DNA from: an uncultured Flavobacteriales bacterium
GTDB lineage: Bacteria; Bacteroidota; Bacteroidia; Flavobacteriales; BACL11
Reading direction: 5' to 3'
Assembly: GCA_905478185.1 (NCBI GenBank)
Contig: CAJQHO010000024.1
Span: forward strand, 1 to 36,408
Length of the DNA: 36,408 nucleotides
Positions 341 to 35,792 of this stretch are shown piece by piece; the stretch's first letter is position 1; the number at the start of each line of letters is the position of its first letter. A model generated the notes under the pieces. That model ran no database searches. It was not told where the DNA came from and was given only the letters and a program-made list of their open reading frames with translations. The position numbers and the translations under genes are program-made.

Positions 341-411
341 TAATTTCCTAAAAAAGTTCGAAACTGGGACCGAGAGGTCCACCAAAAATAAACCCGCTCA
401 ATTGAGTGGGT
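341..411 (-). repeat. Structured repeat element, copy 1 (GAGA-loop hairpin plus terminator hairpin)
   Basis: This 71-base element recurs at 962-1031. Shared blocks, read on the plus strand, are TAATTT, AAAAAAGTTCGAA, CCGAGAGGTCC, AAAAATAAA and GAGTGGG. Bases 367-380 form a perfect 5-bp stem, GGACC/GGTCC, around a GAGA tetraloop (GNRA type if plus-strand RNA). Bases 392-411 form a second stem-loop. On the minus strand it lies right behind the T9SS cargo gene and about 15 bases before the start of the next ORF, the position of a cassette 3' tail. Origin and function are unknown to me. Confidence 0.75.
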
Positions 412-415
412 TTTT
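391..415. terminator. Bidirectional stem-loop terminator inside repeat copy 1
   Basis: ACCCGCTCA/TTGAGTGGGT pairs over about nine positions with one G-U, followed by TTTTT on the plus strand; the minus strand has a U-rich tail, TTTATTTTT. It follows the frame-restored stop of the T9SS gene (418-420) by only a few bases, so it is a natural terminator for that gene. Confidence 0.6.
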
Positions 416-417
416 AT

Positions 418-944
418 TTATTCAATAATCATTTTCTTCTCCACTGTTCCATCATCATAGATGTAAAAGAGTGGTCTGTTTTTAGTTCCTTTTATCTTCC
501 TAAAACATCAACAATGCTAATAAGCTTTCTATTGTAACTGACATTAATATCAGTAATAGCTGTTTGTACTGAGTTGTATGTTAAGATACAAGTGTCCCAA
601 TCACTAGGAGGAATGCCGTATACAAAATAGATAGTTAGAGGATAAGCAGGGATAATAGAGCTAAGAATAGAATAATTAAACAAAGCCCTATCAAAAAAAC
701 TTACTCCAAACAGATTCGGATTGCCTTGTTGAATAGTATCGCCATTTGCATCAATTGTAAAAGCAACATAAGGATCATGAAGAAAGAGATTATATCCGTT
801 ATATATAGCAATATTCATTGTTAAATTAGTATTATCAATTATAACATCCGTCACCTCTAATGAGTCTGTGCAGTCAGGAATATATACGATCTGTGAAAAT
901 CCAATTACAGGTAAGTAAAGTAATATAAGTAGTAGTTTTTTCAT
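418..944 (-). pseudogene. Exported T9SS cargo protein with frameshift in the C-terminal sorting domain
   Basis: The uninterrupted ORF covers 492-944: 150 residues with a signal peptide (KKLLLILLYLPVIGFSQ) and no recognised domain. It ends ...SYNRKLISIVDVLGR at a TAA. In another frame the DNA continues at once with KGTKNRPLFYIYDDGTVEKK and MIIE, stop at 418-420. VDVLGR-x-x-KGTKN...FYIYDDGTVEK is the pattern of a T9SS type A sorting domain, so the two frames belong to one protein. Only two bases (TA) lie between the AGA of GR and the AAA of KGTKN, so a net 1- or 4-base loss is likely. The protein should pass the outer membrane through T9SS. As written, the sorting signal is cut, so it is either a young pseudogene or a base-call error. 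The 5' side carries repeat copy 2 and the 3' side copy 1. Confidence 0.75.
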
Positions 945-961
945 AAAGCAAATTTATTTAA

Positions 962-1031
962 TAATTTTCCAAAAAAAGTTCGAACTTAGGGCCGAGAGGT
1001 CCGCTAAAAATAAATCCACTAAAGAGTGGGG
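962..1031 (-). repeat. Structured repeat element, copy 2
   Basis: Second copy of the element at 341-411. The hairpin at 989-1002 reads GGGCC-GAGA-GGTCC: compared with copy 1, one A has become G, which keeps pairing as G-U in plus-strand RNA but would be an A-C mismatch in minus-strand RNA. The terminator-type stem differs in sequence from copy 1 but is kept as a stem. It begins about 17 bases upstream of the T9SS gene start (944) and lies directly behind the stop of the start-less ORF at 1034. The spacing between copies is 621 bases. Confidence 0.75.
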
Positions 1032-1036
1032 TTTTA
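1012..1036. terminator. Stem-loop terminator inside repeat copy 2
   Basis: TCCACT/AGTGGG (1015-1030) with loop AAAG, followed by GTTTT on the plus strand and by TTTATTTTT on the minus strand. The stop codon of the minus-strand ORF fragment is at 1034-1036, three bases before the stem. Confidence 0.5.
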
Positions 1037-1297
1037 TATTAATTCTCTCATCCAATCATTATAACTTATAATATCTAAATCTCTTGAGTCATCATCTGAC
1101 AAGTAAGTTAGTATCCTCTTTAAATCACCCTCAATCTCTTTATCATAGATTAATCTTGAAATTAAGTCTATGACTTCATTGTCTCTTTTAAACTCTTTAT
1201 CTGATAAAATAGATTTATACTCTCCTCTAATAAACTCTATTTTTTCTTCAATAATCTCTTCTTGATTAATATTTGATCTAATAATTAATTCAGTAAT
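1034..1297 (-). pseudogene. Start-less ORF remnant next to dnaE
   Basis: Between repeat copy 2 and dnaE, 87 codons are open on the minus strand, beginning ITELIIRSNINQEEIIEE and ending DLDIISYNDWMRELI followed by TAA (1034-1036). There is no ATG, GTG or TTG start in frame; the only Met is five codons from the end, and an in-frame TAA lies at 1298-1300. The dnaE stop is only about 20 bases upstream, leaving no room for the missing 5' end. The composition (many Asp, Glu, Ile, Leu, Lys) looks like a genuine small acidic protein rather than chance reading. I do not recognise the family. Apart from repeat copy 2, this is all I see in the stretch 945-1317. Confidence 0.5.
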
Positions 1298-10169: not shown

Positions 10170-11861
10170 TTAATCTCTCTTTAACTTTCTATACTTAATA
10201 CGCTTAGGAGAAATATCACCCAATCGTTTTTTACGATTTTCTTCATAGTCAGAGAAGCTGCCTTCAAAATAAACCACATTACTATCTCCTTCAAATGCTA
10301 AAATATGAGTACAAACTCTATCTAAAAACCATCTATCATGCGAAATAATAACACCACAACCTGCAAAATTATCTAATCCCTCCTCCAATGCTCTCAGTGT
10401 ATTTACATCCAAATCATTGGTTGGCTCATCCAGTAAAAGCACATTTGCCTCTTGCCTTAATGTCATAGCTAAATGCAAACGATTACGTTCCCCACCAGAT
10501 AGTACTCCAACTTTTTTATTTTGATCAGAACCATTAAAATTAAACTTAGCTACATAGGCTCTTGAATTCATCAATTTTCCGCCAACATTTACTTGTTCTA
10601 ATCCACCAGTAATTTGTTCCCAAATAGTTTTTTCAGGATCAATATCAGTATGTTGCTGATCCACATAAGCAATTTTAACCGTCTCACCAACTTTAAAAGT
10701 TCCAGTATCAGCAGTTTCTTGCTCCATTATCATGCGGAATAAAGTAGTTTTACCTGCTCCATTAGGCCCAATAATACCAACTATACCTGCAGGTGGAAGT
10801 TTGAAGTTTAAATCTTCATAAAGCAATTTATCACCAAAAGCTTTACTTACTGCTTCAGCATCAATTACATTATTTCCTAACCTTGGTCCAGGGGGGATAT
10901 ACATTTCAATTTTTTCTTCTTTTTTCCTCCCTTCATCTCCTAAAAGATTTTCATAATTACTTAAACGAGCTTTTGATTTTGACCTCCTTCCTTTTGGTGA
11001 CATACGCACCCAATCCAACTCCCTTTCAAGTGTTTTTTTTCTTTTACTCTCTGATTTTTCCTCTTGCGCTAACCTCTTGGTTTTTTGCTCCAACCATGAT
11101 GAATAATTTCCTTTCCAAGGTATACCCTCTCCTCTATCTAACTCCAATATCCAACCAGCTACATTATCTAAAAAATATCTATCGTGAGTAATTGCAATTA
11201 CAGTTCCTTTATACTCTGCTAAATGTTGCTCTAACCACATTACTGATTCTGCATCCAAATGATTGGTTGGCTCATCTAATAATAAAATTTCTGGCTCTTG
11301 CAACAACAATCTACAAAGTGCAACTCTCCTTTTCTCCCCTCCTGATAAAACAGAAATTTGAGCATCTGGTTCAGGGCATCTTAAAGCATCCATAGCAATG
11401 TTCAATTTAGTGTCAATATCCCAAGCTCCTAAGGACTCTACTTTATCTTGCAAGATACCTTGTTGTTTCATCAAAGCCTCCATTTTATCAGCATTTTCAT
11501 AGTTTTCAGGTAATCCAAAAGCATCATTTATGGAATTATATTCTGCCAATGCATCAACAGCTTCTTGCATTCCTTCCTTTACAATTTCAATTACAGTTTT
11601 ACTCTCATCAAGTTTTGGTTCTTGCTCCAAGTACCCCACTTTGTATCCGTCTGAGAAAGTAACATCCCCCTGATATTGCTTTTCTACCCCTGCAATTATC
11701 TTTAAAAGAGTTGATTTACCCGAACCATTCAATCCTATAATACCAATTTTGGCGCCATAGAAAAAGGAAAGAAAAATATCCTTTAATACTTGTTTGTTGT
11801 TATTGTTGTAGGACTTAGAAAGCCCTGACATTGAAAAAATTATTTTCTTATCATCAGACAT
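10170..11861 (-). CDS. ettA: ABC-F translation factor, energy-dependent translational throttle
   Basis: Soluble ABC-F ATPase of 563 residues that binds the ribosomal E site and couples the first elongation step to the ATP/ADP ratio. Two nucleotide-binding domains without membrane segments are seen. The first has Walker A GLNGSGKST at 43-51, signature LSGGEKRR and Walker B ILLLDEPTNHLD. The second has Walker A GPNGAGKTT, signature LSGGERNR and LLLDEPTNDLD. The family-specific arm lies in domain 1 (QQGILQDKVESLGAWDID), and the basic P-site linker follows it (KRKKTLERELDWVRMSPKGR). Length and both motifs match EttA better than the drug-resistance ABC-Fs. It leads an operon with the YkgJ-like and lipoprotein genes; a perfect TACTTTTG promoter element lies about 22 bases upstream. 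Confidence 0.95.
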   Translation of the reverse strand: MSDDKKIIFSMSGLSKSYNNNNKQVLKDIFLSFFYGAKIGIIGLNGSGKSTLLKIIAGVEKQYQGDVTFSDGYKVGYLEQEPKLDESKTVIEIVKEGMQEAVDALAEYNSINDAFGLPENYENADKMEALMKQQGILQDKVESLGAWDIDTKLNIAMDALRCPEPDAQISVLSGGEKRRVALCRLLLQEPEILLLDEPTNHLDAESVMWLEQHLAEYKGTVIAITHDRYFLDNVAGWILELDRGEGIPWKGNYSSWLEQKTKRLAQEEKSESKRKKTLERELDWVRMSPKGRRSKSKARLSNYENLLGDEGRKKEEKIEMYIPPGPRLGNNVIDAEAVSKAFGDKLLYEDLNFKLPPAGIVGIIGPNGAGKTTLFRMIMEQETADTGTFKVGETVKIAYVDQQHTDIDPEKTIWEQITGGLEQVNVGGKLMNSRAYVAKFNFNGSDQNKKVGVLSGGERNRLHLAMTLRQEANVLLLDEPTNDLDVNTLRALEEGLDNFAGCGVIISHDRWFLDRVCTHILAFEGDSNVVYFEGSFSDYEENRKKRLGDISPKRIKYRKLKRD

Positions 11862-34231: not shown

Positions 34232-35771
34232 GACAGTAAACATTAACCTAGCAGGAATTGTATTTCATATTGATGAAAATGCTTTTGAAACACTAAACAA
34301 TTACCTAAATGCACTTAATAATCATTTTAAAAATGAAGAAGGTAGAGATTAAATATTAAAAGATATTGAAGGGAGAATTGCTGAGCTTTTTACTGAACGA
34401 ATGATAAAAAAAGAAGCGATTTCACTTACTGATATAAATGAAGTAATTACAATAATGGGCGAGCCTAGCCAATATGATGAAGAAATTGAACCAGAAAAAC
34501 CGCAAGAACAGCAGCATAAAGATGAAGACTTAAGACAAGGAAAAAGAAGAAAAGTTTTCAGAGATGAGGAAGGTAGAATGATTGGTGGAGTTTGTAGTGG
34601 ATTGGCTCATTATTTTGATATAAATGTCTTTTGGTTTAGAATTATATTTATAATTCTATTATTTGCAATTGGTGGAGGACCTTTAATGTATATAATTCTT
34701 TGGATTGCAATACCTTCTGCTAAAACCACTGCCGAAAAACTAGAGATGAAAGGAGAAAAAGTAAACATCAATAATATTGAAAAAAATATTAAAGATGAAT
34801 TGAATATTATAGAAAATAAAATATTAGATTTTGACAAGAAATACACAAAAGAAATATTTGGAGCAAATAGTTTTTTCAGAAAAATAGTGGATTTCTTTAT
34901 CCGTGTAATTACAGGGATATTTAAATTTATTGGAAGTTGCTTTGGAATTTTTTCGATTGCATTAGGCGGATTTCTTCTTTTAATTATTTTCTCTCTTTTA
35001 TTTTCTAGAGAAGCAGTTTTATTCCAAAACGATTTATTATTTACGTATGTATTAAATGATTCTATCTTTAGCGACACATTAGGAACATGGCTCTTTCTCT
35101 TTATTGGAATACCAATTGTTGCAGTTATTCTGTTTGGATTAAGATTGGTTAATAACACCAAAATCCATATGAATTACAAAATAGGAATATTTGTTTTATG
35201 GCTAATATCTTTATTTTTTCTTCTTAATTCAGCAAAAGATTTTTCAATAGAATTTCAAGAAGAAGCAAAAAATACAATTATTGAAAATATAATCACAGAA
35301 AGTGATACTCTTTATTTAAGTATGAATAATGTTGATAGAGTGTTCGATAATGCATTTGACGCAAAAGGATTTAAAGTCACTCCTTTTGAAGATAACTTAA
35401 TCGGCAATGGAATGCAGTTAGATGTTGTAAAAAGTAAAAATGATGAATTTAATTTACTTAAAGAAGCTACTGCAAGAGGTAAAAATAAGCATTTAGCAAA
35501 AAAAATGACAGAAGGAATTGGTTTTGAATTTACACTAGAAGATGATAATCTAATTTTTTATGACTTTTTCACTATTTCTACACAAGAATGGCGTATGCAA
35601 GAATTAGATTTAACTTTAGAATTACCTGTTGGTATGGTTGTTTTCTTAGATCATAGTTTAGAGGACTTAATTTACGACATTAAAAATGTTCATAATATGT
35701 GGGATTATGATATGCTTGGCCACTATTGGAAAATGGAGAAAGAAGGTCTTAGTTGTATTAGTTGTGAATAA
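34224..35771 (+). pseudogene. PspC-domain membrane protein interrupted by an in-frame stop codon
   Basis: The reading frame starts at ATG 34224, overlapping padR. It codes MNKTVNINLAGIVFHIDENA, then FETLNNYLNALNNHFKNEEG and RD, then TAA at 34350-34352, then continues in the same frame ILKDIEGRIAELFTERMIKK. Families of this kind have E where the TAA stands (GRDEILxDIExRIAELF), so one G-to-T change (GAA to TAA) explains it. The rest is intact: the PspC domain (KVFRDEEGRMIGGVCSGLAH, then YFDINVFWFRIIFIILLF) near residue 110, two or three further helices, and a beta-rich outward tail with CISCE at the end. Re-initiation at ATG 34401 would give a 456-residue protein without the first 59 codons. 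Either the gene is newly broken, there is a base error, or translation restarts. Confidence 0.8.
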
Positions 35772-35792
35772 CAAAAAAGATATATTTGTCGA

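Follow-up and report, generated by a model that had tools for sequence, protein, structure and literature searches.

What stands twice near one end of a contig from an uncultured Flavobacteriales bacterium, each time next to the stop codon of a small, damaged gene? The earlier note on this DNA had taken the two copies for structured tails of gene cassettes, and left a new cassette-associated site, a mobile non-coding element and a shared regulatory 3′ UTR as readings. We analysed the whole stretch of 36,408 nucleotides (the window) together with related genomes, mostly MAGs. Sequence comparison leads us to regard the element as probably the junction of two mobile gene cassettes, part of a cassette system driven by a large serine recombinase (LSR) at the ends of tRNA and tmRNA genes.

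Two copies near the contig end

Both copies were recovered, at 344-430 and 966-1052. They are 77% identical over 87 nt, lie 622 nt apart from start to start, and are found by a 41-position model with E = 4e-14 and 6e-11 for the whole own genome. The stems, the GAGA loops and the closeness to stop codons are as the earlier note described. The neighbouring genes are indeed damaged: the open reading frame (ORF) at 492-944 is frameshifted, the frameshift preceding a T9SS-type tail (..FYIYDDGTVEKKMIIE*), and at about 1034-1228 only the C-terminal part of a larger gene is left. Each copy contains a conserved head of about 28 nt, GTTCGAA-N4-GGACC-GNRA-GGYCC-ACC, and in head 2 CCAC is altered to CCGC. 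Towards the contig end, the one complete unit adjoins a partial unit; its opposite flank holds a gene remnant (Table 1).

Near its far end the contig carries the 3′ end of a gene which, from reading its sequence, we take to be PspC-like. In G049 (L160, ~8906) the same gene end is followed by an A-tract, a head and an array. On this comparison the window would hold a one-sided empty site, the chromosome-side A-tract being already present in the array-free genome; a match was obtained for one side only of the G049 array.

Table 1. Features of the cassette region and of the array-free site in the window
Feature	Position	Strand	Basis
Start of secreted-protein gene, beta-propeller-like fragment of the neighbouring unit, damaged, cut near contig start	84..326	-	ORF list, frame reading
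A6 tract preceding head 1	350..355	+	T6 (gene orientation) conserved in 83-92% of distinct cassette starts
Head 1, tRNA 3′-end mimic	356..383	+	Model E 4e-14, consensus, tRNA likeness
Parts of head 1: GTTCGAA; tag ACTG; GGACC-GAGA-GGTCC; ACC	356-362; 363-366; 367-380; 381-383	+	
Crossover window of copy 1 (CCAC 379-382)	378..383	.	Positions -23 to -28; identity switch in recent junction pairs
Stem-loop 1, AAACCCGCTC-AATT-GAGTGGGTTT, unit end; probable bidirectional terminator	390..413	.	Inverted repeat I1; present whatever the gene direction; same stem-loops after tRNA ends
Cassette gene, secreted protein with T9SS-type tail, frameshifted near 491	418..944	-	ORF list, frame reading
Sole complete cassette unit in the window, 622 bp, crossover to crossover	382..1003	.	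Unit and crossover comparisons
A7 tract preceding head 2	971..977	+	Sequence
Head 2: GTTCGAA 978-984, tag CTTA, GGGCC-GAGA-GGTCC 989-1002, then GCT	978..1005	+	Model E 6e-11, sequence
Stem-loop 2, TCCACT-AAAG-AGTGGG	1015..1030	.	Sequence; family feature
C-terminal fragment; full-length relative of 476 aa at L174:14133-15563	1034..1228	-	tblastn 56% over 61 aa, E 3e-8
Array-free counterpart: 3′ end of PspC-like gene, then AAAAAAG	35750..35790	.	Comparison with G049

Distribution and structure of the element

The earlier note had set against its proposal the absence of copies in relatives, or their confinement to one duplicated gene family. A search of relatives found many further copies, which do not form one duplicated gene family: the element family comprises 148 copies in 41 examined loci of small-genome marine Flavobacteriales. 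The window's own genome holds nine copies at three mismatches or fewer, against none for the reversed control, and 11 by a covariance model. Within the window's family, the exact pattern found copies in 23 of 52 genomes; within its genus, the covariance model found them in 13 of 14. An order-wide sample gave 27 of 396 genomes with copies, 23 of those 27 in the window's family. The records with exact-pattern matches were mostly marine Flavobacteriales MAGs, and viral contigs contained no occurrence of the element pattern. A few exact-pattern matches of the same spacing in unrelated phyla, which had neither the A-tract nor the stem-loop, were set aside.

The consensus reads TAAAAAAGTTCGAA-N4-GGACC-GNRA-GGYCC-ACCAAAAA, followed by a stem-loop. 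The view that pairing is preserved only on the plus strand, as RNA or as DNA, did not survive the enlarged alignment. Over 61 distinct copies there was no compensatory change, and the commonest variant, GGACC/GGCCC, pairs on the other strand; the compensatory changes proposed as support are missing from the hairpin stem, where 0 pairs were changed on both sides. The element had no Rfam match at the gathering score, only a tRNA being matched in the window, and weak leader-type Rfam matches were discarded as falling on its terminator part. In 107 of 119 regular heads (for example window 367-383) the GNRA loop lies on the plus strand and is followed by ACC(A), so that a hypothetical transcript would resemble a tRNA acceptor minihelix.

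Gene content of the arrays and exchange of units

By the core profile, 40 of the 41 loci hold at least two copies, and orientation is single within all 40; the near-complete genome G048 has 30 copies in four clusters. The intervals usually contain one gene, unrelated to its neighbours. The main gene was antisense to the plus orientation of the element in 77 of 101 cases (hereafter forward) and opposite in 24. The cargo is diverse, 86 cassette proteins matching 123 Pfam families, nearly all once or twice, and by motif match a T9SS-type tail ends 29 of the 77 forward genes. A stem-loop above the 95th percentile of control windows accompanied 52 of the 77 forward and 17 of the 24 opposite-facing genes. 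As it is present regardless of gene direction, it belongs to the unit and is not merely the terminator of the gene; it is probably a two-way terminator. The same indifference to gene direction, with the highly diverse gene content, speaks against a shared regulatory 3′ UTR. Some arrays lie 9-35 kb from the likely dif site of the genus, TTTGCATAATTCTATTT[AG]TATGAA (G048:C2:709782, G049:C1:365130, G039:C126:5545, G045:C2:112525).

Whole units that are 94-99.5% identical stand beside different neighbours in different genomes, with their limits at the elements. There are 19 unit clusters in at least two genomes, four of them across genera. Identities between genomes were, for instance, 93.8% (G000/G019), 96.4% (G045/G012) and 94.9% (G039/G030), while backbone alignments between genera gave only about 67-75%. 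Near-identical units with different neighbours, across genera so divergent in their backbones, indicate that the units are mobile. In the G044 assembly, two contigs carry the orders U15-U09-U21 and U15-new-U21-U09, the common units being at least 99.6% identical; this looks like strain-level reordering, and could also be a mis-assembly or a mixed bin. The leading guess of the earlier note, a new cassette-associated site other than attC, is thus supported by the copies in relatives, the unrelated genes between them, the exchange at the borders and the lack of an attC-like pair.

Location of the crossover

To locate the exchange point, junctions with only the downstream or only the upstream gene in common were compared, with positions numbered in gene orientation from the boundary TTCGAAC/TTTTTT. 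Same-downstream pairs agreed above random at -23, -19, -18, -10 and -8, and not at -34 and -35. Same-upstream pairs had raised agreement at -28, -33, -34 and -35, and were near random at -23, -19 and -18. Where identity reached 99% or more, none of the nine same-downstream pairs had a mismatch to the right of -28, and in seven of eight same-upstream pairs the leftmost mismatch was at -23 or later, the eighth being set apart by a T-run of altered length. For random pairs, the probability of a match at every one of the seven variable head positions is 0.073. The mismatch limits in near-identical pairs place the crossover within GGTGG, that is plus-strand CCACC, at the foot of the hairpin. The boundary TTCGAAC/TTTTTT, itself a candidate crossover, was given up for CCAC after this comparison.

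Judged from these junctions, the hairpin, the tag and GTTCGAA travel with the downstream gene. The borders drawn in the earlier note therefore change, since the element is made of halves of two different units and is not a single 3′ tail. Its description as a cassette 3′ tail holds for the terminator-like stem, which ends one unit, and fails for the GAGA hairpin and GTTCGAA, which belong to the next, the crossover lying between them. Some older same-downstream pairs differ in tag or hairpin, and older events could include crossovers elsewhere in the core, beyond CCAC.

Insertion at tRNA and tmRNA gene ends

The chromosomal gene abutting a unit is often a tRNA or tmRNA gene (..GGGTTCGAGTCCCTCATTGCCCACCA/AAAATAAACCCACTC.., slash at the border). 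ARAGORN identified the targets as tRNA-Val(tac), tRNA-Val(gac), tRNA-Arg(tcg), tRNA-Phe(gaa), tRNA-Ala(ggc) and tmRNA, and unit stem-loops directly follow the CCA(C) of tRNA-Val, -Arg, -Phe, -Ala and tmRNA genes. Occupied tRNAs and tmRNAs are still detected by ARAGORN, the RNA gene remaining whole, as in tDNA islands. One locus, presumably exbB-exbD-tonB-folC-tRNA-Val from reading its ORFs, holds differing units in many genomes.

RNA genes without a unit mostly have no encoded CCA. The tmRNA end reads ..GCTCCAC/TTAAATTTG in G048, where there is no unit, versus ..GCTCCACCA/AAGCGG when occupied. Among 65 distinct RNA 3′ ends, 29 had CCA and a stem-loop, 31 neither, three a stem-loop only and two CCA only; because many of the CCA examples were obtained by the CCACCAAA pattern, it is their association with the stem-loop that is informative. 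Searched with tRNA spacing, this pattern had 46 sites, spread over 32 of 52 genomes, and none in the control. Occupied tRNA ends and the head have only GTTCGA and CCAC in common. The unit stem-loops behind the CCAC of tRNA and tmRNA genes, together with the mostly missing CCA of unit-free genes, make the head a mimic of a tRNA 3′ end; the crossover falls in the same CCAC in tRNAs as in heads. The tmRNA gene of the window's own genome, on contig 34 (L284:929-1298), has an encoded CCA and a unit stem-loop, marking it as an occupied target.

A large serine recombinase at the target ends

Comparison of the target ends also brought out a recombinase gene, which, like the tRNA and tmRNA targets themselves, the earlier note had not anticipated. 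At tRNA-Val in G045 lies a gene for a protein of 536 aa that has a Resolvase and a Recombinase domain (PF00239, PF07508); the 3′ end of this gene runs through a second stem-loop type (AAGCGGAATCC..) into the tRNA. The same LSR gene, together with a weakly MerR-like neighbour of 304 aa and the beginning of a gene for 159 aa, stands at tmRNA in G009, which belongs to a different genus; the region (L276 vs L289) is 97.3% identical over 3170 bp, against 73% for the backbone. Partial copies or remnants, either at target genes or within arrays, occur in G046, G013, G048, G041, G043, G044, G025 and others. As the 3′ end of the LSR gene constitutes this second stem-loop type and remnants lie within arrays, array stem-loops of that type are best read as recombinase-gene fossils. 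The catalytic domain resembles that of the TP901-1 integrase.

PF00239 had no match in G000, G039, G030, G013, G014 and G049, although G013 has an LSR remnant at a contig end. The own genome likewise had no LSR by PF00239, so its arrays look orphaned; so, by this survey, do most arrays, in a CALIN-like manner. Every intact LSR unit is cut off by a contig end on its far side, so that any head there would lie outside the sequence. The LSR was not found in viral contigs, and plasmids had only recombinases less than 60% identical to it. Its place, and the ends and targets it has in common with the cassettes, suggest that the LSR is probably the enzyme that moves them.

Alternative explanations

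The same cassettes and sites might instead be moved by a tyrosine recombinase, either XerC/XerD or a tDNA-type integrase, with the LSR a mere passenger. tRNA 3′ ends are the classical targets of tyrosine integrases (PMC4383910), XerC/XerD-sized PF00589 genes occurred in almost all of the ten array-bearing genomes searched, and integrases of about 400 aa were also present in several of them. However, G039 and G014, both with arrays, have only two Xer-type PF00589 genes each, the sequence that is probably the dif of the genus (TTTGCATAATTCTATTTATATGAA) does not resemble the head, and no tyrosine recombinase recurs at the target ends as the LSR does. We consider this explanation unlikely. For the same dissimilarity of sequence, the element was rejected as a dif/Xer site. 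A small contig beginning with a head (L277:1393-1773, G039:C73) carries a 126-aa tyrosine-recombinase ORF, possibly a rival enzyme or a passenger. Homologous recombination between the ~70-bp repeats after natural transformation, with no dedicated enzyme, would draw on the 35-70 bp of similar sequence common to every unit border and on the frequent lack of an LSR in MAGs. But pairs at least 99% identical switch at CCACC and not across the whole core, occupied tRNA ends have only GTTCGA and CCAC in common with the head, and the first insertion at tRNA ends would stay unexplained, which makes this account rather improbable.

A regulatory or terminator region which T9SS cargo genes share by duplication, and which is not itself mobile, would fit the T9SS-type tails on 29 of 77 forward genes and the promoter-like TAnnTTTG after several heads. 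It is very improbable in view of the diversity of the cargo (86 ORFs, 123 Pfam families), the opposite-facing genes that keep the stem-loop (17 of 24, among 101 main genes) and the units that cross genera with sharp borders. A known integron cassette array with IntI and attC is scarcely credible despite the array form, the one gene per unit and the CALIN-like orphan clusters. None of 145 elements had an attC-like R''/R' pair (RYYYAAC..GTTRRRY; random windows, mean 0.1) or GTTRRRY at the core, PF00589 matches were not recurrently next to arrays in ten genomes, as an IntI beside attI would be, and the crossover lies at CCAC. An element of REP/RAYT or IS200/IS605 type was rejected, the Y1 HUH transposase (PF01797) being absent in 11 of 12 genomes.

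Proposed mechanism and relation to known systems

Sequence comparison establishes the arrays of one orientation, the exchange of units and their transfer across genera, the crossover window, the difference between occupied and empty RNA gene ends, and the LSR gene at these target ends with its 3′ end forming one stem-loop type. In the LSR-driven cassette system that we propose, a unit read on the plus strand begins with CCA-A(n) and a stem-loop, probably terminating transcription both ways, then carries usually one gene, mostly on the opposite strand, and ends with A6 and the head, which imitates the T-loop, acceptor, discriminator A and CC of a tRNA 3′ end (A6-GTTCGAA-N4-GGACC-GNRA-GGYCC-ACC). 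Units insert at the discriminator base of tRNA or tmRNA genes (..CCA/C..), leaving the RNA end intact and supplying it with a terminator. Because every unit carries its own mimic, new units could insert at mimics and build arrays of one orientation; units could also be lost, reordered and passed between species. The LSR would catalyse integration at tRNA ends and mimics, acting in trans for units without an LSR, and the units would presumably move as circles. The arrays of the own genome would be orphans.

Like integrons and CALINs, the cassettes form long arrays of one orientation, composed mostly of single-gene mobile units, many without a nearby recombinase. Unlike them, they have no attC and no linked IntI, another crossover and another enzyme class. 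They work like an integron array, yet show neither attC nor IntI. There is about an even chance that they represent a serine-recombinase counterpart of the integron, in which single-gene cassettes carry a tRNA 3′-end decoy, any suitable tRNA or tmRNA gene and all earlier cassettes serve as landing places, and the enzyme acts in trans, passing between genera.

Staphylococcal and enterococcal cassette chromosomes (SCC and ECC) use a large serine recombinase, insert at the 3′ end of a conserved gene and form tandem composites that include recombinase-less units; SCC targets rlmH and has large units. The cassettes resemble them in the serine recombinase, the gene-3′-end insertion and the tandem composites. 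They differ in using several tRNA and tmRNA genes plus unit-borne mimics, and in being mostly single-gene units. The targets found were tRNA and tmRNA genes and not the rlmH 3′ end, and the LSR scored 65 bits against the CcrB model and 37 bits against CcrC (cut-off 900 for each).

tDNA islands (Islander/TIGER) also insert at tRNA or tmRNA 3′ ends and restore the RNA gene, carry a site resembling the target and can form tandem arrays, but known cases use tyrosine integrases (PMC4383910), whereas the enzyme recurrent at target ends here is an LSR. Tandem members there each have their own integrase and a true tDNA fragment, while the cassettes mostly have one cargo gene, no integrase and a generic mimic. 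Tycheposons and additive flexible islands likewise represent tRNA-anchored gene flux in small-genome aquatic bacteria. One type of additive island, described in Methylophilaceae, repeats the final 20 bp of tRNA-Lys and holds 1-63 genes, and tycheposons are given as 4-200 kb long with a tyrosine recombinase; the passages considered mention no serine recombinase, multi-tRNA mimic site or one-gene arrays (PMC10872708). A limited literature search found no published description of the cassette system.

The system would offer a concrete, testable route for single-gene exchange among streamlined marine bacteria. If the enzyme is the LSR, serine integrases would be joined to tRNA/tmRNA targeting, which was not known according to the Islander authors in 2014 (PMC4383910) and to which a non-exhaustive literature search found no later exception. 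It would further show that an unrelated recombinase can give rise to integron-like cassette arrays through the copying of a tRNA end.

Parallel families may exist. A second LSR family, about 25% identical to the first, was found in three genomes (L279:4455-6014, L280:8128-9687, L281:6123-7679); its gene ends inside tRNA-Leu(taa), and upstream of it lies a partner gene that is MerR-like. A second conserved repeat of ~200 bp (..GGTTAGCGGTGCAAAAAGTGGTGCAAATTTTAG..GGTTGTAATCCTGCTACCCCGA), at L214 ~10960-11150 and also in L221, L215, L160 and L171, has an end resembling the 3′ end of tRNA-Pro and may be the site of a parallel cassette family. In the own genome, a copy of this repeat lies beside the head at L285:6443-6480.
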